Source: Crambe crambe
Taxonomy: Eukaryota; Porifera; Demospongiae; Poecilosclerida; Crambeidae
Assembly: GCA_963924555.1 (NCBI GenBank)
Contig: OZ004593.1
Coordinates: 4,832,480 to 4,896,479, forward strand
DNA: 64,000 nt
Direction of reading: 5' to 3'
Part shown: in pieces, positions 1-53,157 of the stretch
Layout of the letters: each line of letters begins with the position of its first letter
How positions within the stretch are numbered: the first letter of the stretch is position 1
Position numbers and translations under genes: made by a program
Notes under the pieces: model-generated
What the model saw: only the letters and a program-made list of their open reading frames with translations
The model's database searches: none
What the model was told of the DNA's origin: nothing

Positions 1-912
1 TAGCTGCATGATAGTAGCTGCAGTAACTATGATCTTAACACCATATTATGTAGGTTCACCTGTGTGCAATAATGAAGTGGAGGTCACAGCTCAGTACTAC
101 AATGATGGAGGTATGCAGTACCATGAGAAATTTTATATCATGCATTCCAACAACTAGCTACAGGATTTGAATCCAATATCAGGTGTAATATCAAGGACCT
201 TGTCTTTGGTGCTTCCAACAGTGCAATCATCAACTTGACACTTAGTGGTTCAAACATCACAAAGACTGGAGTTTACAATAAATGGAACAATATTTCACTC
301 TGAATGGAAGTGAATCAAACTTTGGAGTGCATCTCATCATTACAGGTAAATATAGTGCCAGATGAAGAAAATTCTCAATTGAAACTCTTGACATAAGTGA
401 GTTTACTCAATTATTATAGTATTGTCATGCATCCTGTCTCTTGATTACAGACACAACTTATAGAATCAATGGAGGTGGAACAATAGACATTAGCAGTACT
501 TCAACTAATACTGCTTCAAGTATAACAGGTGCCATCATTAGAGCCACTGTCACCATTTCTTTCCTCCTCCTTCTTCTTGTGACTATATTCCTCACTGGTA
601 TACTCAATAAGGAAAAATTGCCCAGTCTCTTCAAACAATCAATCCAGTTAAAGATGGATCAGAGCAAGAATCAGAACCCAACTATGAAGAAATATACCAT
701 CACCCACCAGAGAAAAAGAAGAAACATCTTTCAATTTCACTGATAACTGTTGCTATGCTGGTGCAGGTGTTCCATTGTATGAAGTTATTCATTCTCCAGA
801 CTCTGTTGCTGAACAAACAACCACAATGGAATCCAGTGAACTCTTCAACTCTGATACATTAACAGTCGATAACAGTTGTACTGAAGACCTCAATCATGCA
901 GGAAATGCTTGA
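1..912 (+). pseudogene. Receptor array copy 1 (short-tail), decayed, 5' end outside window
   Basis: This is the first copy of the tandem receptor array. The window opens inside intron 1. The ectodomain exon starts at about 54 after a TAG acceptor and opens with SPVCNNEVEVTAQYY, as in the intact copies. A small insertion after 'gatggaggt' shifts the frame, and a stop (CCAACAACTAG) follows near 157. The middle of the exon is also missing sequence relative to the copy at 9594-9980. The stalk/transmembrane exon starts near 451 and encodes a short Thr/Ser stretch, then a hydrophobic helix. The tail is frameshifted near 690 relative to the intact short tail at 6005-6296, although remnants such as FTDNCCYAGAGVPLY can be read in another frame. 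The signal-peptide exon would lie upstream of the window. It is most likely a pseudogene; a rescue by alternative splicing cannot be excluded. Confidence 0.7.
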
Positions 913-1085
913 ATGAAGTGAACATAACTATAGAACATTGTCGAACTTGCACTTTTGGGTTATTATAATAAGACTTGCTTTTCATATATATAATAATAAG
1001 GTTCATTGAAATTTCCAACATCATAACTACTTTTCTCTGTGAGTGGTACTACCTAGCTAGATAGTTACGTATATGCAGCCTGAAG

Positions 1086-2101
1086 ATGTCCAGCTTCTTC
1101 ACCAAAGTCATGTTCAAGAGCTTCCTCATCTTTTCACTTCACAGTCACAGTGGACAAAGTAAGAGATTTATGCTAGCTATAGATGTTTTAGTTAGTTGAT
1201 AGTACCTGCAGTAACTATGATCTTAACATGATATTATGTAAGCTCACCTGTGTGCAATAATGAAGTGGAGGTCACAGCTCAGTACTACAGTGATGTAGAC
1301 AACATAACAGATGTAATATCAAGGACCTTGTCTTTGATGCTTTCAACAGTGCAGCCATCAATTTGACACTTAGTAGTTCAAATATCATAAAGACTATACC
1401 ATTGGAGTTTAGAGTTATCAATGATAATAATTATTAGCATTACACTAAATGGAAGTGAATACAATATTTCACTCTGAATGGAAATCCTTTGGAACTGAAC
1501 CAAACCTTGGAGTGTATCTCATCATTACAGGCAAGTATTGTGCCAAATGAAAATGAACTCTGGACATAAGTGAGTTTACTCAATCATTACTCAAATTATA
1601 GAGATGGAACCACTAGTACAACAGATATTAGCAGTACTTCAACTAAAACTGCTTCATCAACCACTGCTTCAACTTCAACTACATCACCTACTGCTTCATC
1701 AACCAACACCACATCACCAACTGCTTCAAATATAACAGGTGTCATAATTGGAGCCTCTGTCGTCATTTCTTTCCTCTTCTTTCTTCTTCTTGTGATTATA
1801 TTCCTCATTGGTGTAATTAAGAGGAAACTTGCTCAGTCTCCTCAAATAGTTAAGGATGGATCAGAACAAGAATCAGAACCCAACTATGAAGACATACCAT
1901 CACCCACCAGAGAAAAAGAGACTGCCTTCAATTCACTGACAACTGTTGCTGTGCCAGTGCAGGTGTTTCATTGTATGATGCTATCCACTCTCCAGACTCT
2001 GCTGATAAACAAACGACCACAATGGAATCCAGGAACTTTGATACATTAACAATCGATCTTAACAGTTGTGCTAAAGATCTTGAAGTGCTTAACATAAATT
2101 G
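1086..2101 (+). pseudogene. Receptor array copy 2 (short-tail), decayed
   Basis: A signal-peptide exon (1086-1158, MSSFFTKVMFKSFLIFSLHS..., phase-1 donor GTAAG) is intact. The next acceptor region reads TAAG|CTCACC where intact copies have TAG|GTTCACC, so splicing at that AG would put the ectodomain one base out of frame. The ectodomain exon also lacks about 50 nt after the QYYSD segment and contains stops (for example TTATTAG near 1432). The stalk and transmembrane helix (1600-1830) are open and read TSTTDISSTSTKT then GVIIGASVVISFLFFLLL. The tail has a one-base deletion at FNS (near 1930) compared with FNFTDN in the intact copy, and a deletion near its end. The intron before the stalk is cut to about 31 nt. 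The defects are too many for a functional gene. Confidence 0.75.
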
Positions 2102-2149
2102 AGAATATTATAGAACATTGTGTAGCACTCATGGACACTGGACACTATA

Positions 2150-2520
2150 ATGAGACATCTTGCTTTCATGTCCTATGCACTCATGGTATGTTTGGGAGAG
2201 GGGGGAGGGGGAGGGAGGGAGAAGGGGAAGGGGGAGGACCCCGGAAGGGAGGAGGGGGGAGGGGGGAGTAGGTATATATGCATGTATGGCTAATTCTCTT
2301 CAAGTAGACATGTCACTGCAATGAAGCTCTTTGGAGAAAACATGCAGTTTGGAAGCACAGCAGAAAGGAGGGGACTAGTCTCGTGCCCAGCTTCTGCTTT
2401 TTCTGGGAGAGGCTAGAGGGGACTGCAGGGAAGCCCCACATACTGTTACTGTTAGAGTGTATAGGTATGTAGTTAGGTTGAAAAGCAATAACAGAAACAT
2501 AACAGAATAGAAGTTATCAG
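2150..2520. repeat. Intergenic spacer repeat of the receptor array, G-rich, copy 1
   Basis: This spacer block recurs at about 6355-6690 and 8868-9245. Each copy starts with 'atgagacat', then 'gtcctatgcactcatggtat', then a purine stretch dominated by GGGAG/GGGGA on the + strand (here 2196-2267), then 'ggactagtctcgtgcccagc' and 'tctgggagaggctagagggg'. No reading frame or RNA gene is evident. The copies mark the duplication units of the array. Confidence 0.8.
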
Positions 2521-2704
2521 TACACAAGCATTCACTGAAGTTTACACAAGTTCTCCCTGTTTACTTAGTTATTGAGTTATATTGTAATAACTAGATATTA
2601 TTAAAATTGATGGTCATACCGAAAATAGTATTTTATGATAATGATGTCATTGAAATTCCCAATATCATAACAACTTCTCTGTGAGTGGTACTAGCTAGAT
2701 CAGC

Positions 2705-4810
2705 ATGAACATATCCAGCTTCTTTGCCAAAGTCCTGTTCAACAGCTTCCTCATCTTTTCACTTCACACTCACAGTGGACAAAGTAAGAGATTTGTGCTA
2801 GTTATAGCTGTTTTAGTTAGTTGACAGTATGTAGCTGCAGTAACTCTGATCTTAACACAATATTATGTAGGTTCACCTGTGTGCAATAATGAAGTGGAGT
2901 TCACAGCTCAGTACTACAGTGATGGAGGCAACACAATGAGAAATTATACATGCACACTACAATCTGAATCCAATATTATCAAATGTGACTTCGATAAGGA
3001 TCCTGGTTTTGATGCTTCCAACAGTGCAGCCATCAACTTGACACTCAGTAGTTCAAATATCACAAAGACTATACCATTGGAGTTTAGAGTTATCAATGAT
3101 AGTATTGGCATCACACTAAATGGAAGTGAACAATATTTCAATCGAACTGAAAGGGTTTTGGAATTAAATCAAACCTTGGAGTGCATCTCATCACTACAGG
3201 CAAGTATTGTGTTAGGTGAAAATGAAGGATCATTTTTAATTGAAACTCTGGACATAAGTGAGTTACTCAATTATAATATAGTATTGTTATGCATCCTGTC
3301 TCTTTTAATTACAGGTAGAATTGATGGACATGGAACCACGAGTACAACAGACATTAGCAGTACTTCAACTAAAACTGCTTCATCAACCACTGCTTCAACT
3401 TCAACTACATCACCTAATGCTTCCTCCACCATCACCACATCACCAACTGCTTCAAATATAACAGGTGCCATTATTGGAGCAACTGTTGCCATCTCCTTCC
3501 TACTCCTGTTCATCATAGTGGTAGTCTTAGTCCTAATAGCCACAATCCTTCGAAGAAAAAAGTCCCATTTCTTTGACCATGGACCCTTCACAACCTCCAA
3601 TAGAGAAGACAATAACTATGAGACCATTAACACACTGCCACACCCCATGACACCGGCATTCGAAACAGGTAGCCGCTACAGTGATGGAAGCACGAGAAAC
3701 CTGAGCATGGCGAGCTTTGATATGTCATCCAGAAATAACCACCTCTATCCTCAAAACGACTTACCTCTCCCTCCAGTCGAGTCTGATTTCGCTACCATTG
3801 AAGAATGGAGGAGATACGAAGCAGAAAACGATCCCATTCCTAACCCCTTTTATGCTACGACGTCTGCTTTCTCATCTAGCACTGGAAGTGCACTCATAGA
3901 AGAACCGAATTATGAGATTATCCAAGAAGCCAAGCAAAGATTCGCATCACAAATAGGTGGAAGTCTGCATCACACCTTTGACATACATCAAATCCAAGAC
4001 CCTCATCATATGGCACAGTCACTTCATGACATACACACAACGATACATCCAACAAAGCTACCTTGGACTGGCTCTGTGAATAGAGTCAATAGAAATATGG
4101 CCACTAAGAAAATTCATCCACCACACTTCCATCGCAACGAGATGGATTTTGGACCACACTCCAATGTATCTCCCCTCACAAAGAGTTTAATGGCGAACCA
4201 TCTCATCACTGACCAAAAATCAGCAATGGAGGCAAATGGTGAGATGGAGGATCAAAGTCCTGGTGCCATCAAGAATGATTTTTACGTGACTACTTCTGAA
4301 CTGGAGCCGGAGTATTTCACACTTATAGATGATTCGCATGTGGTATCATGTGTGGAGGAACCTTCTGCTGAACCAGAAAGCACTACACCCCAAAGACCAG
4401 GTGAGGAATCAACGGACAGCATATCTGCACCTGATGACAGTGACCCCATTTATAGTGAGGCCAAGAAAACAAGATCCAAAGAGAACTTGGTAAGTACAGA
4501 AGAGCATGATATTACTACTGAAGAAAGCAGCCATATTGGTGATCTTCCTCCTCCACCATTTAAGTACGAGGAAGGAGAACTAATAGAAGTAAATAGAATG
4601 TCCGATAACGAAACGAGAGAAAGAGTTGAACTTGGACAAGAAAAGAAAGAAAGAAACGATAAAATACAACCTCAATCCTCTCAAACTGAGCATGACAACG
4701 AGGAACACCTCAACAATACAGACACCTCTCCTCCAGACAGACATGTCGAACCCTCGCTTCTCCCCTCGGCTATGAATGTTGATGATAAGCCTGCCCCGAA
4801 ATTAAATTGA
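2705..4810 (+). CDS. Receptor array copy 3, intact long-tail type I membrane protein
   Basis: A three-exon gene: 2705-2783, 2871-3257 and 3315-4810, joined in phase 1, giving 653 aa. Residues 1-26 are a signal peptide (MNISSFFAKVLFNSFLIFSL...). Residues 27-155 form one ectodomain with four cysteines after the signal (SPVCNN, NYTC, IIKC, LEC) and many N-glycosylation sequons; I do not recognise its fold. A Thr/Ser-rich stalk (157-206) leads to a transmembrane helix (about 207-234) and a basic RRKK stop-transfer. The long tail has tyrosine motifs NNYETI, PNYEII, DPIYSEA and PEYFTLI, an ATIEEWR block (315-321) and an NPFY motif (332-335), which is an NPxY-type endocytosis/PTB site. The 57-nt second intron has no stop and is in frame. 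The C-terminus is shorter than in the copy at 9432-11617 because a deletion brings a downstream TGA into frame. The role is probably cell-surface recognition with tyrosine signalling; this is inferred. Confidence 0.85.
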
Positions 4811-5076
4811 ATTGCCCTTTATTCAGTAAAATTAATAATCAGTAGTAGTCATCTGTTACTAGTTAACTAGCAAAAATTTGAGTTTGATGGTAGTGGCAGG
4901 AAAGCACTGCAGTGGCAGTGGCAGTAGTTAGGCACACATGTATTACTTATAATGTCATCTCTTAATGTGTTTATTCTTGTGAGTTATGTAAAAATGAGAA
5001 GTTTAAATTAACTATTGGATAAAAAATGCTATAATTTTCAGTGTAAAGTTGTCAACAAGAAGGAAAAAAATGCCGT

Positions 5077-5082
5077 AATAAA
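5077..5082 (+). promoter_or_regulatory. Probable poly(A) signal of the long-tail receptor at 2705-4810
   Basis: AATAAA lies about 270 nt after the stop codon. The same hexamer sits at the matching place (11902-11907) after the other long-tail copy, within a conserved 3' UTR block. Confidence 0.5.
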
Positions 5083-5155
5083 TCATCATGTGAAATGAGT
5101 TTTGATAACTAGGCTATAGCAACTAAATTAGTATGACGATGTATGCAGCCTGAAG

Positions 5156-6296
5156 ATGTCCAGCTTCTTTGCCGAAGTCATGTTCAACAGCTTCCTCATC
5201 CTTTCACTTCACACTCACAGCGGACAAAGTAAGAGATTTGTGCTAGCCATAGCTGTGATAGTAGCTGCAGTAACTATGAACTTAAAACCATATGACATTG
5301 TATAGGCTCACCTGTGTGCAATAATGAAGGCATTTTGATGGTAACAGCTCAGTACTACAGTGATGGAGACAGCACTATGGGAAATGTTACATGCATGCCA
5401 GCAACACAAGGATCTCAATTTAGTTGTGCTTTCAAAGGACTAGGTCTAAACTTCAACACTTCTAACAGTGCAGCCATAAACCTAACATTTAGTGGTTCAA
5501 ATATCACAGATGTTCTACCATTAGAGTTTAGTGCTATCAATGATAGTGTGATTAATATCACAGTAAATGGAAATGCCCAATATTTCACTCTGAACGAGAA
5601 AGATAATTTGGATTTGAATCAAAGCATAAGATGTATCTCCTCACTACAGACAAGTATAGAAGGAACATTTTCAATCGAATCTTTGAACATAAGTGAGTTT
5701 ACTCAATTATTGTAATTATTGTTGCATTCTTATGCCTGCTGCCTCTTAATATAGACTTAAGAAGTGGAACCACAACAAATGAATCGAGTACTGCAACAAA
5801 ACGTCCTGATCTAACCACAAGTAGACAAGAGAGTAGCAGTACAAGTAGTCCCTCATCATCAACTACAACTACTTCATTACCCACTTCTTCCTCCATCACC
5901 ACATCACCACCTACTTCAAATATAACAGGTGTCATCATTGGAGCTACTGTTATCATCTCCTTCCTCCTCCTTCTTCTTCCTGTGATTATTATATTCCTCA
6001 TTGGTGTAATTAAGAGGAAACTTGCTCAGTCTCCTCAAACAGTTAAGGATGGATCAGAACAAGAATCAGAACCCAACTATGAAGACATACCATCACCCAC
6101 CAGAGAAAAAGAAACTGCCTTCAATTTCACTGACAACTGTTGCTATGCCGGTGCAGGTGTTCCATTGTATGATGTTATCCACTCTCCAGATTCTGTTGAT
6201 GAAAAAATGACCACAATGGAATCCAGGAACTTCGATACATTAACAGTCGATCTTAACAGTTGTGCTAAAGATCTTGAGCATGAAGGAAGTGCTTAA
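5156..6296 (+). CDS. Receptor array copy 4, intact short-tail type I membrane protein
   Basis: A three-exon gene: 5156-5228, 5306-5692 and 5755-6296, all joints in phase 1, 333 aa. Residues 1-24 are the signal peptide (MSSFFAEVMFNSFLILSLHT...). The ectodomain exon is 387 nt, the same length as in the two long-tail copies, and aligns with them from SPVCNNEG through AAINLT and LEFSAINDS. It lacks the IIKC cysteine context and has FSCAF instead. The stalk is rich in Ser/Thr (TSSPSSSTTTTS). The helix GVIIGATVIISFLLLLLP is followed by a basic VIKRK. The short tail has PNYEDIPSP and PLYDVIHSP tyrosine motifs, a double cysteine (NCCYAG) and ends in CAKDLEHEGSA. It lacks the ATIEEWR and NPFY blocks of the long tail. 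This is the only intact short-tail copy. It may be a partner or a decoy for the long-tail proteins; this is inferred. Confidence 0.83.
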
Positions 6297-6354
6297 CATA
6301 ACTTGAGAATATGGAACATTATCTATCGCATGCATGGAAACTGGACACTATAAT

Positions 6355-6690
6355 GAGACATCTTGCTTTCATGTCCTATGCACTTATAGTATGTTTGGGA
6401 GAGGGAGAGGGATGGCAGAAAGGGGAGGGAGGGGGAGGGGAAAGGGGGTGTGGTGAAGAGGAGTAACATGTATGACTAATTCTCTTTCACAAGTAGACAC
6501 GTCACTGCAATGGCTCTTTGGAGAAAGGCAGAAAGGAGGGGACTAGTCTTGTGCCCAGCTTCCACTTTTTCTGGGAGAGGCTAGAGGGAACTGCAGGGAA
6601 GCTCCACATATACTATTATTGTTAGAGTGTATAGGTGTGTAGTTAGGTTGAGAAGCAACAACAGAAACATAACAGAGTACAGTACACAGG
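6355..6690. repeat. Intergenic spacer repeat of the receptor array, G-rich, copy 2
   Basis: Same block as at 2150-2520. The purine-rich part is at about 6399-6465 and is shorter here. It separates the intact short-tail gene from the broken copy at 6850. No coding potential seen. Confidence 0.75.
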
Positions 6691-6849
6691 CATTTACTGA
6701 AGTTTACACTTGTTTACTTACTAGTTAGCTATTGTGTAATAACTAAACTGATGGTCATAACGAAATAGTATTTAATAATAATGAGGTCATTGAAATTCCG
6801 AATATCATAACAACTTCTCTGTGAGTGGTACTAGATAGATAGTTATGTA

Positions 6850-7546
6850 TATGCAGTCTGAACATGTTCAAGAGCTTCCTCATCTTTTCACTTCACACAC
6901 AGTGGACAAAGTAAGAGATTTGTGATGTTTTTTAGCTAGCTGACTGTACTGTTGGAAGCATCGAAGACAAGGTCCTTGATATTACATCTGATATTGGATT
7001 CCAATTCTGTAGTTGTTGGCATGCATGATATAAAATTTCTCATAGTACTGCCTCCTTCAAAACTCTTGACATAAGTGAGTTTACTCAATTGCTGTATCCT
7101 GTCTCTTCTAACAACAAACATGACTTATAGAATCAATGGAGGTGGAACCACAAGTACAACAGACATTAGCAGTACTTCAACTAAAACTGCTTCAAGTGCC
7201 ATCATTGGAGCCACTGTCATCATTTCTTTCCTTCTTCTTCTTCTTCTTCGTGTGTATATAAGGAAAAATTGCCAGTTAAAGAGGATCAGTGTAAGAAGCA
7301 GAACCCTACTATGAAGAAATACCATCACCCATCAGAGAAGAAGAAGAAACAGCTTTCAATTTCACTGATAACTGTTGCTATGCGCATGCTGGTGCAGGTG
7401 TTCCATTATTCATTCTCCAGACTCTGTTGCTGAACAAACAACCACAATGGAATCCAGTGAACTCTTCAACTCTGATACATTAACATCAATAACAGTTGTA
7501 CATACTGAAGATCTCAATCATGCAGGAAATGGTTCAATGAAATGAA
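6850..7546 (+). pseudogene. Receptor array copy 5 (short-tail), broken by inversion and deletion
   Basis: A shortened signal exon (MFKSFLIFSLHT from about 6862) is followed by the GTAAG donor at about 6910. The intron and the start of the ectodomain exon are deleted. About 100 nt of ectodomain exon (roughly 6951-7053) sit in reverse orientation: read on the - strand they encode TMRNFISCMP, then SNIRCNIKDLVFDASNST. Normal orientation resumes at 'aactcttgacataagtgag'. The stalk is cut to TSTTDISSTSTKTASS, the helix is SAIIGATVIISFLLLLLL, and the tail is frameshifted, although EEIPSPIREEEETAFNFTD remains readable. It cannot make the family protein. Confidence 0.75.
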
Positions 7547-7722
7547 CATAACTATAGAACATTGTCTAACTTACACTATAATAAGACTTGCTTTTTTATA
7601 ATTTCACTGAGGGGGTAGTCCTACTGAAAGTATGAGGTTCATTGAAATTTCCAACATCATAATTGAACTTCTCTGTGAGTGGTACTAGCTAGATAGTTAT
7701 ATATAGCCATATCAGCCTGAAC

Positions 7723-8816
7723 ATGTCCAGCTTCTTTGCCAAAGTCCTGTTCAACAGGTGCTGTCTCCATCACTGTAGTACTGAGCTGTTACTATCGAAA
7801 TTCCTTCATCATTGCACACAGGTGAGCCTATACAATGTCATATGGTTTTAAGTTCATAGTTACTGCAGCTACTATCACAGCTATGGCTAGCACAAATCTC
7901 TTACTTTGTCCACTGTGAGTGTGAAGTGAAAGGATGAGGAACTATGGGAAATATTACATGATACAAGGATTTTAATTTAGTTGTGATTTCAAAGAACTAG
8001 GTCTAAACTTCAACACTTCTAACAGTGCAGCCATAAACCTAACATTTAGTGGTTCAAATATCACAGATGTTCTACTATTAGAGTCAATGACAGTGTGATT
8101 AATATCACGGAAATGCCCAATATTTCACTCTGAATGAGAATCGTGATTTGAATTTGAATCAAAACATAAGATGTACAGTATCACCTCACTACAGGCAAAT
8201 AATATAGGGGGAGCATTTTCAATCGAATCTTTGAACATAAGTGAGTTTACTCAATTATTATTGCATTCTTATGCCTGCTGCCTCTTAATACAGACTTAAG
8301 AGGTGGAACCACAACCACTGAGTCAAGTACTAAACATCCTGATCTAACCACAAGTAGACAAGAGAGTAGCAGTACAAGTAGTCCCTCATCATCAACTACA
8401 ACTACTTTATTATCCACTTCTTCCTCCATCACCACACCACCACCTACTTCAAATATAACAGGTGCCATCATAGGAGCTACTGTTGCCATCTCCTTCCTAC
8501 TCCTCCTTGTGATTATAATATTCCTCATAATTGATATAATTAAGAGGAAACTTGCTCAGTCTCTTCAAACAGTTAAGGATAGATCAGAACAAGAATCAGA
8601 CATACCATCATCACCCACCAGAGAAGACGAAACTGCCTTCAATTTCGCTGACAACTGTTGCTATGCTAGTGCAGGTATTCTCATGTATGATGTTATCCAC
8701 TCTTCAGCAGACTCTGTTGATAAACAAACGACCACAATGGTATCCAGAAACTTTGATACATTAACAGTCGATGTTTACAGTTGTGCTAAAGATCTTGAAC
8801 ATGAAGGAAGTGCTTA
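7723..8816 (+). pseudogene. Receptor array copy 6 (short-tail), broken by a 184-bp inversion
   Basis: The signal exon starts normally (MSSFFAKVLFN) but from about 7758 to 7941 the sequence is the reverse complement of the rest of exon 1, intron 1 and the start of exon 2, as seen by comparison with 5191-5374 in the intact copy. The normal strand then resumes at 'ctatgggaaatattacatg'. Further deletions and frameshifts affect the ectodomain (7942-8237). The stalk (TSSPSSSTTTT) and helix (GAIIGATVAISFLLLLVIII) at 8290-8530 are open, and the tail reads to EHEGSA at 8816 with small in-frame deletions, so the 3' exon decayed less than the 5' part. Confidence 0.75.
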
Positions 8817-8867
8817 ACATAAATTGAGAACATAGAACATTGTGTAGCACTCATGGACACTGGACAC

Positions 8868-9245
8868 TATAATGAGACATCATGTCCTATGCACTCATGG
8901 TATGTTTGGGAGAAGGGGAGGGAGGGGAGATAGAGGAGGAGGGGGAGGGGAGGGAGGGGAGATAGAGGAGGGGGAGGGGAGGGAGGGGGAAAGGGGAGCA
9001 GGTATTATATATGCATGCATGGCTAATTCTCTTCAAGTAGACATGTCACTGCAATGAAGTTCCTTGGAGAAAACATGCAGTTTTGGACCACAGCAAGAAG
9101 GAGGGGACTATATAGTCTCGTGCCCAGCTCCTGCTTTTTCTGGGAGAGGCTAGAGGGGACTCCAGGGAAGCCCCACATTGGTATGTAGCTAGGTTGGGAA
9201 GCAATAACGGAAACATAACAGTATAGAAAGTTATCAGTACACAAG
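8868..9245. repeat. Intergenic spacer repeat of the receptor array, G-rich, copy 3
   Basis: Third copy of the spacer block. The purine stretch (8908-8999) contains a local duplication of a 'gggaggggagatagaggagg' unit. It is followed by the same 'ctcgtgcccagct' and 'ctgggagaggctagagggga' segments as at 2370-2430. No gene seen. Confidence 0.78.
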
Positions 9246-9355
9246 CATTCACTGAAGTTTACACGAGTTCTCCCTGTTTACTTAGTTATTGAGTTATATT
9301 GTAATAACTAGATATTATTAAAACATACTGAAAATAGTATTTTATGATAATGATG

Positions 9356-9431
9356 TCATTGAAATTCCCAATATCATAACAACTTCTCTGCGAGTGGTAC
9401 TAGCTAGATAGTTATATGTAGCCATATCAGC
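9356..9431 (+). promoter_or_regulatory. Conserved upstream block of array genes (candidate core promoter/5' UTR)
   Basis: A stretch of about 75 nt with 'attgaaattcccaatatcat', 'acttctctgcgagtggtact' and 'agctagatagttat' lies just before the start codon. Near-identical copies precede the array genes at about 1004-1085, 2648-2704, 6786-6859 and 7634-7722. The intact short-tail gene at 5156 lacks most of it and keeps only 'gtatgcagcctga'. Conservation ahead of each start suggests a promoter or leader, but a simple copy of the duplication unit would look the same. Confidence 0.45.
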
Positions 9432-11617
9432 ATGAACATATCCAGCTTCTTTGCCAAAGTCCTGTTCAACAGCTTCCTCATCTTTTCACTTCACACTCAC
9501 AGTGGACAAAGTAAGAGATTTGTGCTAGTTATAGCTGTTTCAGTTAGTTGATAGTAGCTGCAGTAACTATGATCTTAACACCATATTATGTAGGTTCACC
9601 TGTGTGCAATAATGAAGTGGAGGTCACAGCTCAGTACCGCAATGATAGAGGCAACACAATGAGAAATATTACATGCATGCTACAATCTGAATTCAATATT
9701 ATCAAGTGTAACTTCAATAAGGAGCCTGGCTTTGATGCTTCCAACAGTGCAGCCATCAACTTGACACTCAGTGGTTCAAATATCACAAAGACTATACCAT
9801 TGGAGTTTAGAGTTATCAATGATAGTATTGGCATCACACTAAATGGAAGTGAACAATATTTCAACCGAACTGAAAGGGTTTTGGAATTAAATCAAACCTT
9901 GGAGTGCATCTCATCACTACAGGCAAGTATTGTGTTAGGTGAACATGAAGGATCATTTTTAATTGAAACTCTGGACATAAGTGAGTTACTCAATTATAAT
10001 ATAGTATTGTTATGCATCCTGTCTCTTTTAATTACAGGTAGAATTGATGGACATGGAACCACGAGTACAACAGACATTAGCAGTACTTCAACTAAAACTG
10101 CTTCATCAACCACTGCTTCAACTTCAACTACATCACCTAATGCTTCCTCCACCACCACCACATCACCAACTGCTTCAAATATAACAGGTGCCATTATTGG
10201 AGCAACTGTTGCCATCTCCTTCCTACTCCTGTTCATCATAGTGGTAGTCTTAGTCCTAATTGCCACAATCCTTCGAAGAAAAAAGTCCCATTTCTTTGAC
10301 CACGGACCCTTCACAACCTCCAATAGAGAAGACAATAACTATGAGACCATTAACACACTGCCACACCCCATGACACCGGCATTCGAAACAGGTAGCCGCT
10401 ACAATGATGGAAGCACGAGAAACCTGAGCATGGCAAGCTTTGATATGTCATCCAGAAATAACCACCTCTATCCTCAAAACGATTTACCTCTCCCCCCAGT
10501 GGAGTCTGATTTCGCTACCATTGAAGAATGGAGGAGATATGAAGCAGAAAACGATCCCATTCCTAACCCCTTTTATGCTACGACGTCTGCTTTCTCATCT
10601 AGCACTGGAAGTGCGCTCATAGAAGCACCGAATTATGAGACTATCCAAGAAGCCAAGCAAAGATTTGCACCACAAGTAGGTGGAAGTCTGCATCACATCA
10701 ATGACGTACATCAAATCCAAGACCCTCATCATACGGCACGATCACTTCAAGACATCCACACAACGATGCATCCGACAGAGCTACCTTGGACTGGCTCTGT
10801 GAATAGTAGAAATAGAAACATGGCCGCTAAGAAAATTCATCCACCACACTTCCATTACAACGAGATGGATTTTGGACCACCACACTCCAATGTATCTCCC
10901 CTCACAAAGAGTTTAATGGCAAGCCATCTCATCACTGATCAAAAATCAGCAATGGAGGCAAATGGTGAGATGGAGGATCAAAGTCCTGGTGCCATTGAGA
11001 ATGATTTTTACGTGACTACTTCTGAGCTGGAGCCGGAGTATTTCACATTCATAGATGATTCGCATGTGGTATCACGTGTGGAGGAACCTTCTTCTTCTTC
11101 TGCTAAGCCAGAAAGCACTGCACCCCAAAGAGCAGGTGAGGAATCAACGGACAGCATATCCGCACTCGATGACAGTGACCCCATTTATAGCGAGGTCAAG
11201 AAAACAAGATCCAAAGAGAACTTGGTAAGTACAGAAGAGCATGACATTACTGAAGAAGGCAGCCATATTGAAGATCTTCCTCCTCCAGTTCCTCCACCAT
11301 TCAAGTACGAGGAAGGAGAACTATTAGAAGTAAACGAAATGTCCGATAACGAAATGAGAGAAAGAGTTGAACTTGGACAAGAAAAGAAAGAAAGAAACAA
11401 TGAAATACAACCTCAAACTGAGCATGACCATAAGGAAAACCTCAACAATACTGACACCTCTCTTCCAGAGAGACATGTCGATGCTCAAGAACCCTCACTT
11501 CTCCCCTTGGCTATGAATGTTGATGACATGCCTCCACACGATGAGAAAAAAACAGAAAACAGGGAACAGCCGAAACTGTTGGGAAATGTGATAGAGGAAT
11601 TTGGTAAAGAAAACTAG
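9432..11617 (+). CDS. Receptor array copy 7, intact long-tail type I membrane protein
   Basis: Exons 9432-9510, 9594-9980 and 10038-11617, phase 1 throughout, 681 aa. The layout matches the copy at 2705-4810: signal peptide, 129-residue glycosylated ectodomain, Thr/Ser stalk, transmembrane helix, RRKK, and a long tail with NNYETI, PNYETIQEA, PEYFTFI and DPIYSEV tyrosine motifs, the ATIEEWR block and NPFY. The first ~45 ectodomain residues differ sharply from the sister copy (VEVTAQYRNDRG against VEFTAQYYSDGG), while the rest is nearly identical. The C-terminus is longer (ends in LLGNVIEEFGKEN) and probably ancestral, since the sister copy lost this part by deletion. The 57-nt intron 9981-10037 is again stop-free and in frame. 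Acidic and proline-rich stretches (PPPVPPP near 11280) could bind SH3 domains. The function is unknown; a surface recognition receptor is inferred. Confidence 0.85.
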
Positions 11618-11901
11618 TAAGCCCCGAAATTAAATTGAATTCCCTTTATTCAGTAAAATTAATAATCAGTAGTAGTCATCTGTTACTAGTTAACTAGCAA
11701 AAATTTGAGTCTGAAGGTAGTGGCAGGAAAGCACTGCAGTGGCAGTGGCAGTAGTTAGGCACACATGTATTACTTACAATGTCATCTCTTAATGTGTTTA
11801 TTCTTGTGAGTTATGTAAAAATGAGAAGTTTAAAATAACTGTTGGATAAAAAACGTTATAATTTTCAGTGAAAGGTTGTCAACAAGAAAAAAAACAAATG
11901 T

Positions 11902-11907
11902 AATAAA
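11902..11907 (+). promoter_or_regulatory. Probable poly(A) signal of the long-tail receptor at 9432-11617
   Basis: AATAAA within a 3' UTR block (11621-11945) that matches 4790-5105 after the sister gene. The unique sequence of the array's right flank begins shortly after. Confidence 0.5.
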
Positions 11908-12128
11908 TCCGTGAAAATGAGTTTTGATAACTAGGCTATAGCTACAGAATTATTATGAGAATGTTTATCATGAAAGCTGATGTTATGAGAGGAACCACCT
12001 GTTAAAGCATCTATTAAGCGCTTGATTATGAAGAAGTGAAATCATATGATGAAGTAGTCATATAATCTATGTAACAGTACATCCCACATGATATGACTAC
12101 GTTCTATGCACCACATGGACACTCAAGT

Positions 12129-16225: not shown

Positions 16226-17578
16226 ATGGAGTCGCCATTTTTGCTCCTGACGCTCCTCCTGAGCTTCTCACTTGTCCAGGATAGTCAACAAGGTAAGAAT
16301 CTGTCAAAATTCCTATCGAGGCCACAAATTAGTGATGAATACTGTAGAGGATTTATGATAGCAATTTTTGTGTGACTTCCTCGTTTGAATTTCAAAGACC
16401 ATGCTATGCTAGTTCTGATGGTACTTTGTATAAGGCTCTATTCCATGCAAATGTGACAGTCCAAGTAGAAACCGAAATACATTCATTTTTTGCCGCTACT
16501 TTTTTTGAATTTTGGCTCACCTTTATAGTCCCCATGAAAATAGTCTAGAACACATGATAGAAGTTTGGAATAAATTCATCAAAGCATAATTGAAGAAATA
16601 ATAAATTCAATTAAGCTGATAATAATTATTTGATTTCTACATGGGATTGTCACAAAATTAATATAGACTCTAAAATGTTCCCCATGGCAATAGGCTTAAC
16701 TTGTTACTCGCAAGACCACTTCACAAAGGACCATAGGTAGAGCTAGCTAGCTAAGACTTAGAGATTTATGAACTCAGCTACTATTTTTTTAGCAAGTCAC
16801 CTTCCTGTATGGGGCAGGGAACACTTAATTTGCACTTTCCTCCTACAGACATTGAAATGCAAGCATCCATCTCCCCTAGACTTCTGGTTTTAAAAAGAAA
16901 TGGCTAACGGTTGATGTACAGAAGTGGCTAAGCTATTGTTATTATAGAGTCCTATGTAGCTATACATAAGATATGGGTCCTTCATTGCAATGTTCCATCA
17001 TGCAGTGTCTATTTTCATTCACTTTATGCAGAGCAACGGTTAGTAAGGAGAATGCCAACCTACTTACTGATTCAAGGGACACAAGTTCACTGCGCTAATA
17101 GCAATGATCCAAGATATCAGTATAACTGTTCAGAACCTATACCCATTTACAATAATGATCAACCTTCGGATTCAATGGAAAATTGGCTTGAATGGAAAGA
17201 TAATGGCAGTCTAAATTTTAGCTTTCAAAATGGTAACACATTAAGCAGAATAAAATTATGGTACAGTATAGAAATGGAAAATGCTCATATCACTATCCCA
17301 TCATTCAACTTTTCATTCACTGCACAAAATACTTCTGGACTGCATCATATAAGTGTCAGTGGAATGAGTCGAAGCATAGATAAGTTGCCAATAACTCTTC
17401 ATGTGCCACAAAATGCTGTTTTTTACTTGAGCAATATCACATTTTATGACAATGGTGAGCAATGATCATAAATTGTTAGTGGCAGAAAGAGGATTGAAGT
17501 CAGGAGGGAGGGAGTGAGAGCTAGGAGGAGAGAGGAAGTGAAAGGCAAAGAGAGAGAGTGAAAAGAGAGAGGGAAGAG

Positions 17579-17609
<31 letters not shown>

Positions 17610-17661
17610 GAAGTGAAAGGCAAAGAGAGAGTGAAAAGAGAGAGGGAAGAGAGAGGAGACG

Positions 17662-17749
<88 letters not shown>

Positions 17750-18656
17750 AATAATAATATTTATTTATTTACTTTTAGAAACTTCAAGTACAACTCTCTC
17801 ACAAATACCACCACTAACAACAGAGGGCCTCCAAACAACAATCATCACTATATCCATTGTACTTGGACTTCTCCTTTTGCTTGTTGCCTGCACTCTCATT
17901 GGACTCATATGTGTGGTCCTTTACAAGAAGAAAAGTCCCGATCACCTTCGAAGATTTGAGGCTCAGGAGAGAAACACTTATGATCTATCGCAACATAGAG
18001 AGGTAAAGGATGAGCATTACTATCATTCGAAACAACATGATTTCCTAGCTTCTGAAAAACCAATGCCACCATCAGATCCCGAGTATGCAACGATATCAGA
18101 ATGGAGGGAGATGCAAAACCTCCCTCATCATGAGTCAACACAATCTGCTGGTGTCATGAATCCATTTTATGCTGCCAGCAACATGTCCATTGCCACTAGA
18201 AGCTCAGATGGGGGGCCACCAAGTTACCCCAGCCCCGGGGGTCAAAGCAGCATGAATCTCATTCCCACTGATCCAAATCACAGTCCCAATTTGAGACGTA
18301 CCACAAGAGCATATTCACTGCAAGATGTAAGGAGTACGATGAATAAAGGCCTCAACTCCCCAAATCTTCGTGGAAAAACGTTTACAATAGGAAGTCAAAA
18401 TAAAGTCCCACGCCCTTTGCCCCCACCACGCCCAGTAATGAGGCACACTAGCATGAAGGCAACTCCTACAGCCGAGGTCTATTTGCAACCATTTAATCAG
18501 CCTGGGAAGTTAGTGTCACCGCTCACCCAGGATGTGAGGGCTGCAAGGGGCTATCAAGTGGAGGATTCAAGGGATAAAGAGTCAGAGCTAGAGAGAAGTG
18601 ACCGGAGTTCTGTGGATGCTGAGAACTATATTATTATGTCATCACGTGACCAATGA
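16226..18656 (+). CDS. Type I membrane receptor with array-type tail and a different ectodomain
   Basis: Exons 16226-16292, 17032-17454 and 17779-18656, phase 1 at both joints, 455 aa. Residues 1-20 are a signal peptide (MESPFLLLTLLLSFSLVQDS). The single-exon ectodomain (residues 23-163) has two cysteines (VHC, YNC) and sequons, and shows no clear match to the array ectodomains. The helix is about 184-212, followed by YKKK. The tail shares four collinear blocks with the array long tails: PPSDPEYATISEWRE (266-269 is YATI) against PPVESDFATIEEWRR; NPFYAASNMS (291-294) against NPFYATTSAF; YSLQDVRSTM against RSLQDIHTTM; VSPLTQ against VSPLTK. It is Pro-rich near 18410-18440 (LPPPRPV) and ends in ENYIIMSSRDQ. 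This is a diverged relative that kept the signalling half. It probably acts at the cell surface through tyrosine and PTB/SH2 adaptors; this is inferred. Confidence 0.85.
17533..17747. repeat. (GA)n microsatellite in intron 2 of the receptor gene at 16226-18656
   Basis: Long (GA)n with small interruptions, including a duplicated 'ggaagtgaaaggcaaagaga' segment. It fills most of the intron 17455-17778. On the + strand it is purine-rich, so it is not a polypyrimidine tract for this gene. Confidence 0.95.

Positions 18657-25779: not shown

Positions 25780-53157
<27,378 letters not shown>

Follow-up and report, generated by a model that had tools for sequence, protein, structure and literature searches.

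Genes and proteins of the array

The window analysed here is a stretch of 64,000 nucleotides (nt) from the sponge Crambe crambe (C16:4832480-4896479 of the assembly odCraCram1.1, C16 being chromosome 13; one haplotype of one individual), and it opens with a tandem array of genes that appear to code for small cell-surface receptors. The window contains seven copies in head-to-tail order, three of them intact (B, C and F) and four decayed, as had been proposed in the initial annotation and is borne out by the frames, the splice sites and segment mapping. The array reaches upstream to about -10.2 kb, and six further copies or fragments are located before the window, three of them intact (U1, U2 and U3); in total there are 13 copies or fragments and six genes with intact frames. 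U1 has a long tail and an intron 1 of roughly 1.3 kb, U3 has a short tail, and U2 has a short tail with a shorter end. In B, C and F both introns are GT/AG and phase 1, the start is ATG and there is no internal stop, which agrees with the earlier description of a single ectodomain exon bounded by phase-1 introns. The exact length of 387 nt given for this exon holds for all three window genes but not for the intact upstream copies, whose exons measure 375, 384 and 372 nt; therefore, 387 nt is not constant across the family. Intron 2 is 57 nt long at 3258-3314 and 9981-10037, and likewise in U1 and U3, with the frame open through the intron. Owing to this open frame and a length that is a multiple of three, intron retention would add 19 mostly hydrophobic residues, which may be chance. 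Two of the decayed copies hold locally inverted ectodomain or 5′ pieces (table 1), and no Rfam families were found in the window.

The genome-wide searches covered 119 contigs with a total of 143.14 Mb. With the nucleotide sequence of the signal and ectodomain region as query there were 17 matches, and with the ectodomain protein of C there were 12 at E <= 10, all of them on C16 within 4822636-4842458. Neither the DNA nor the protein search matched the array ectodomain in the rest of the genome; these searches score the best candidates only, so a distant genomic relative may be overlooked.

The proteins of B, C and F are 653, 333 and 681 amino acids (aa) long, with tails of 415, 89 and 443 aa, respectively. 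The Thr/Ser stalk and single helix noticed earlier are recovered as a Ser/Thr content of 61-66% (61-71% across five copies) and as one segment in each protein above the 19-residue hydropathy cut-off used for calling transmembrane (TM) segments. The signal peptide stands as a reading of the sequence, its hydrophobic stretch falling short of the same cut-off. Each of the three window ectodomains has seven N-x-S/T sites and four Cys, and across the five copies examined there are four Cys and six to seven N-glycosylation sequons. In the six-copy alignment the variable columns are gathered at positions 23-48 (20/26) and 89-106 (13/18), compared with 4/18 at positions 49-66.

The ectodomain of C has no match in Pfam-A, and the longer frames of B, F and C have only sub-cut-off matches there, the best of which lie over the stalk, the TM segment and the nearby tail (for TMEM154, PF15102, 20.2, 21.0 and 25.0 bits against a gathering cut-off of 30.3). 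Among PDB sequences nothing was found for the ectodomain of B, and the six-copy profile gave a single match, at E 1.4. AlphaFold2, run with the three window sequences, returned a low-confidence all-beta model of eight strands (mean predicted local distance difference test, pLDDT, 58.3; predicted template modelling score 0.52). None of the 709 Foldseek matches of this model reaches E <= 0.001; the best is beta-fructofuranosidase (E 0.055), and among the best 50 of the 709 most are beta-rich (galectins, lipocalins) and the only immune-complex entries rank 13th and 16th; none of these matches is significant, and they carry no weight. A search for immunoglobulin (Ig)-like domains had also been suggested. 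An Ig domain is recognized by its core Cys pair and the Trp of strand C; Trp is absent from the ectodomain in all six intact copies, there are four Cys, and no Pfam Ig match was found. Therefore, a canonical Ig domain is not supported. The ectodomain profile gave no confirmed relatives in viral contigs, and no description of the family was found among the open-licence papers listed. The suggestion that this is an undescribed single-ectodomain surface-receptor family is supported by the lack of significant ectodomain matches in Pfam-A and PDB sequences, and judging from its sequence we regard this sponge family, with its two classes of tail, as apparently undescribed.

Separate histories of ectodomains and tails

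The two tail classes recognized earlier divide the intact copies evenly, into long (B, F and U1) and short (C, U2 and U3). The long tail was found three times in the genome and contains 10 (B), 11 (F) or 9 (U1) Tyr, a proline-rich motif and, in all three, one NPFY. The short tails of C and U3 have three Tyr each and two YxxI motifs. No Pfam kinase match was found in the array tails, the long tail has no match among PDB sequences at E <= 1, and no relatives of it were confirmed in prokaryote genomes.

Ectodomain and tail do not follow each other among the copies. U1 and U3 are identical at 72/73 positions of the signal exon and at 364/372 (97.8%) of the ectodomain exon, and yet one has the long and the other the short tail. 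The tail of U3 is closest to that of C (345/359, 96%). In its ectodomain exon, however, C diverges more than any other of the six and agrees with U3 at only 260/357 positions (73%; Fisher p 3e-19 for the discordance of this pair); synonymous divergence (dS) between the two genes is 0.13 for the tail but 0.67 for the ectodomain. The tail of B is nearer to that of U1 (1309/1340) than to that of F (1247/1328; p 1e-6), whereas its ectodomain lies marginally nearer to F. Therefore, the ectodomains and tails of the array do not share a single common history.

Table 1. Features of the array and of the adjacent receptor gene (positions in the window; TM, transmembrane segment)
Feature	Position	Strand	Remark
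Gene B exon 1: start codon, inferred signal peptide, phase-1 donor	2705..2783	+	sequence reading
Gene B exon 2: 129-residue ectodomain, phase 1/1	2871..3257	+	no PDB sequence match
Gene B exon 3: Thr/Ser stalk, TM, long tail (10 Tyr, one NPFY)	3315..4810	+	
Gene C exon 1: inferred signal peptide	5156..5228	+	
Gene C exon 2: ectodomain, most divergent intact copy, 59% aa identity to B	5306..5692	+	no Pfam match
Gene C exon 3: stalk, TM, short tail (3 Tyr)	5755..6296	+	
Gene F exon 1: inferred signal peptide	9432..9510	+	
Gene F exon 2: ectodomain, 91% aa identity to B	9594..9980	+	
Gene F exon 3: stalk, TM, long tail (11 Tyr, one NPFY)	10038..11617	+	
Decayed short-tail copy, start about -170 (before the window)	1..910	+	
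Decayed short-tail copy with stops	1003..2092	+	
Decayed short-tail copy, contains inverted ectodomain piece	6780..7534	+	
Inverted ectodomain fragment in decayed copy	6941..7059	-	
Decayed short-tail copy: C-like ectodomain, inverted 5′ piece, stops	7639..8817	+	
Inverted piece: end of signal exon, intron 1, ectodomain start; reverse-strand donor	7758..7941	-	
Neighbouring receptor gene, three-exon phase-1 plan, 455 aa, other ectodomain, long-tail homologue	16226-16292, 17032-17454, 17779-18656	+	

Neighbouring receptors and the wider region

Both tail classes recur under other heads. The neighbouring gene at 16226-18656 has three exons in phase 1, the same plan as the array genes, and its tail is related to the long tails of F (26% over 226 aa, E 3e-7 in a comparison of eight sequences) and B (36% over 67 aa, E 1e-5). 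In the genome its ectodomain has no match at E <= 1 other than itself. The by-eye assignment of this ectodomain to the second family described below was withdrawn, its 6.3 bits being beaten by 2/200 shuffles of its own sequence and only suggestive, and the structure prediction for this second window ectodomain (pLDDT 43.5) is unusable. A long AG-rich simple repeat lies at 17523-17747 inside intron 2 of the same gene. The short tail is found 57-58 kb before the window, where a receptor frame (L038) joins a second-family ectodomain, 73% identical to the query copy, to a TM segment and a short tail in the same open frame. This tail and that of C are identical at 46/98 aa and have the block TDNCCYA..GVPLY.VIH in common (E 1e-12 in a three-protein comparison); in the genome search the match has E 1.1e-16, and its alignment extends beyond the stop of the frame. 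Thus, each tail class of the array is found under another head.

Upstream of the window lies an array of the second ectodomain family, several of whose tails repeat H-x-YSVV. The ectodomain of this family is encoded by a single exon, and those tried have no Pfam match; among PDB sequences the best E of its profile was 1.4 with 10 sequences and 0.64 with 11. Genome-wide there are at least 151 matching stretches (E <= 0.01; fragments are included, and 150 of the 186 candidates were scored), many of them at C16 5.43-6.07 Mb and C21 0.88-0.95 Mb. Three loci there (L054, L055 and L056) have kinase-less frames whose tails repeat LYAQV-type motifs. At C16 5.42-6.05 Mb, a listed second-family ectodomain lies upstream of 15 of the 24 listed kinase matches at a distance of no more than 5 kb, and for 12 of these the distance is 1.7-2.3 kb; the 5-kb count, taken uncorrected for chance, is by itself weak because ectodomains are dense in the region. 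At L061, one of these loci, an ectodomain frame (1184-1870) is followed by a separate frame with stalk, TM segment and kinase (PF07714, E 2.2e-78). The second family probably includes at least one tyrosine-kinase receptor, its ectodomain lying beside the kinase or joined to it. The ectodomain at L057 scores 0.9 bits with the family profile and its membership is unsupported. A resemblance of the long tail to the juxtamembrane region of the L057 kinase was rejected (BLASTP gave no match at E <= 0.1), the juxtamembrane region of L061 reaching E 0.09 only. The repeated-YSVV tail matches the long tail of F, and YSVV tails match YAQV tails, at E 0.003; these weak matches are not built on.

Other genes of the region may be recorded. 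The window contains a fibrinogen C-terminal domain (PF00147, E 3.7e-29) in the open frame 49731-50612 on the minus strand, and a TIR-domain open frame (PF13676, E 1.9e-15; L022) lies about 22.4-21.6 kb before it. About 46-45 kb before the window, on the minus strand, open frames resemble an Ig-like domain (by eye) and fibronectin type III (below cut-off; L039). Two tyrosine kinase frames are located at C16:4976850-4983070 (L090), and upstream of one of them are two Ig-like frames (by eye).

Interpretation and known systems

What could these genes do? The reading we favour, and hold to be somewhat probable, is that the array is a cluster of recognition receptors with exchangeable heads and tails, tandem copies and tyrosine-bearing tails. 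The products would be type I membrane receptors in which a Ser/Thr-rich stalk carries a single small ectodomain that is probably glycosylated, their copies arising by tandem duplication and decaying quickly, while recombination or gene conversion would join an ectodomain to either tail class. The tails would be modules that also serve further receptor genes in this part of the chromosome. The likeliest task would be cell-surface recognition of allogeneic or microbial partners, or of both: the variable ectodomain would meet a ligand carried by a neighbouring cell or by a microbe, tail Tyr residues would be phosphorylated, and SH2 or PTB proteins would be recruited. The long and short tails may then give differing outputs, and near-identical heads could couple one ligand to two outputs, as in paired receptors. 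The observed architecture, copy number, decay, ectodomain-tail discordance and shared tails are consistent with this reading, in which surface exposure, glycosylation, tyrosine signalling and recognition are presumed, and an allorecognition role would be a further step. Several observations weigh against it. Tandem duplication and decay are equally expected for ordinary surface proteins, and a canonical immunoreceptor tyrosine-based inhibitory motif (ITIM) is present in 0/5 array tails examined (B, F, U1, C and U3). The nearness of the ectodomain of B to that of F (369/387) over that of U1 (344/375) is marginal (p 0.054). The ratio of nonsynonymous to synonymous divergence (dN/dS) of the ectodomain is 0.41-1.12 in 15 pairs, with values above 1 not demonstrated, and its excess over the tail is non-significant in 4/4 pairs tested (p 0.12-0.56); therefore, positive selection is not claimed. 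For the short tail with its TM segment, dN/dS is 0.21-0.80 in three pairs.

The same genes could code for adhesion or sialomucin-like proteins, in which head and stalk act in adhesion or as a shield, and NPxY and proline-rich motifs anchor the tails to cytoskeletal adaptors. The Ser/Thr content of the stalks, the NPFY and proline-rich motif of the long tails, and the weak matches to TMEM154 and mucin-like Pfam families over the stalk, TM segment and flanking tail would fit such proteins, but near-identical ectodomains bear two unrelated tail classes, many copies are decayed and the tails are common to receptors with other ectodomains, and we consider this explanation unlikely. A local duplicated family drifting without special function would account for the 7/13 copies or fragments that are not intact and for the pairs with ectodomain dN/dS near 1; it is quite improbable given six intact frames and a long-tail dN/dS of 0.36-0.43 in 3/3 pairs. 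It is also doubtful that the array ectodomain is a shortened relative of the second family and not an independent fold. The stalk-TM-short-tail module is common to a second-family member and both ectodomains seem strand-rich, but no such kinship was found at the level of sequence: the profile-profile probability is 0.24% (0.37% with 18 sequences), and with the family profile B and C reach 2.0-2.2 bits, under the best shuffled controls.

Two further proposals concern the setting of the cluster. A sensor of symbionts or pathogens, as part of a lineage-specific immune cluster in a microbe-hosting filter feeder, is a sub-case of the recognition-receptor reading, with which its likelihood overlaps, and it is possible, though we would not count on it. 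The TIR and fibrinogen frames and the second large receptor family on the same chromosome point that way, but the present evidence does not separate microbial from allogeneic ligands. More speculatively, and with rather low likelihood, C16 4.77-6.07 Mb may be a sponge histocompatibility-like complex in which several unrelated single-exon ectodomain families are combined with a few signalling tails and with tyrosine kinases, the array being its freely reshuffled segment.

Sponges tell self from non-self with remarkable specificity (PMC5450542). Within the open-licence literature searched, as far as its accessible text goes, no membrane receptor is named for this discrimination, and there is no Crambe paper on fusion among the matches listed. 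From its sequence, the locus is a good candidate for a role in recognizing microbes or in telling self from non-self. The array is compact and mapped, comprises six intact genes with an orphan ectodomain and exchanged tails, and lends itself to resequencing in sponges whose fusion behaviour is known. If the interpretation is true, tails common to unrelated ectodomains would show how a receptor repertoire is assembled in a non-bilaterian animal.

The KIN-16 receptor tyrosine kinases of nematodes are lineage-specific and linked to pathogen recognition (PMC10523662). They are comparable to the kinase-linked second family of this sponge, whereas the array tails have no Pfam kinase match. Hydractinia Alr genes, according to PMC11067881, form clusters of single-pass receptors of the Ig superfamily with many pseudogenes, and the ectodomains of Alr1 and Alr2 are highly polymorphic. 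The sponge array is likewise a cluster of predicted single-pass receptors with pseudogenes, but its ectodomain has no Ig signature. The sponge aggregation factor, also a candidate for sponge self recognition, consists of large secreted or matrix proteins and not of small predicted membrane receptors such as the array products. In the vertebrate paired receptors (LILR, KIR, Ly49 and the teleost LITR), near-identical ectodomains carry different tails, and the genes lie in tandem arrays with pseudogenes. The ectodomains of the two systems are unlike, and the five sponge tails do not have the canonical ITIM of the inhibitory members; however, the pair U1 and U3, with closely matching ectodomain exons and different tail classes, resembles them, the tails presumably acting in signalling here as well.

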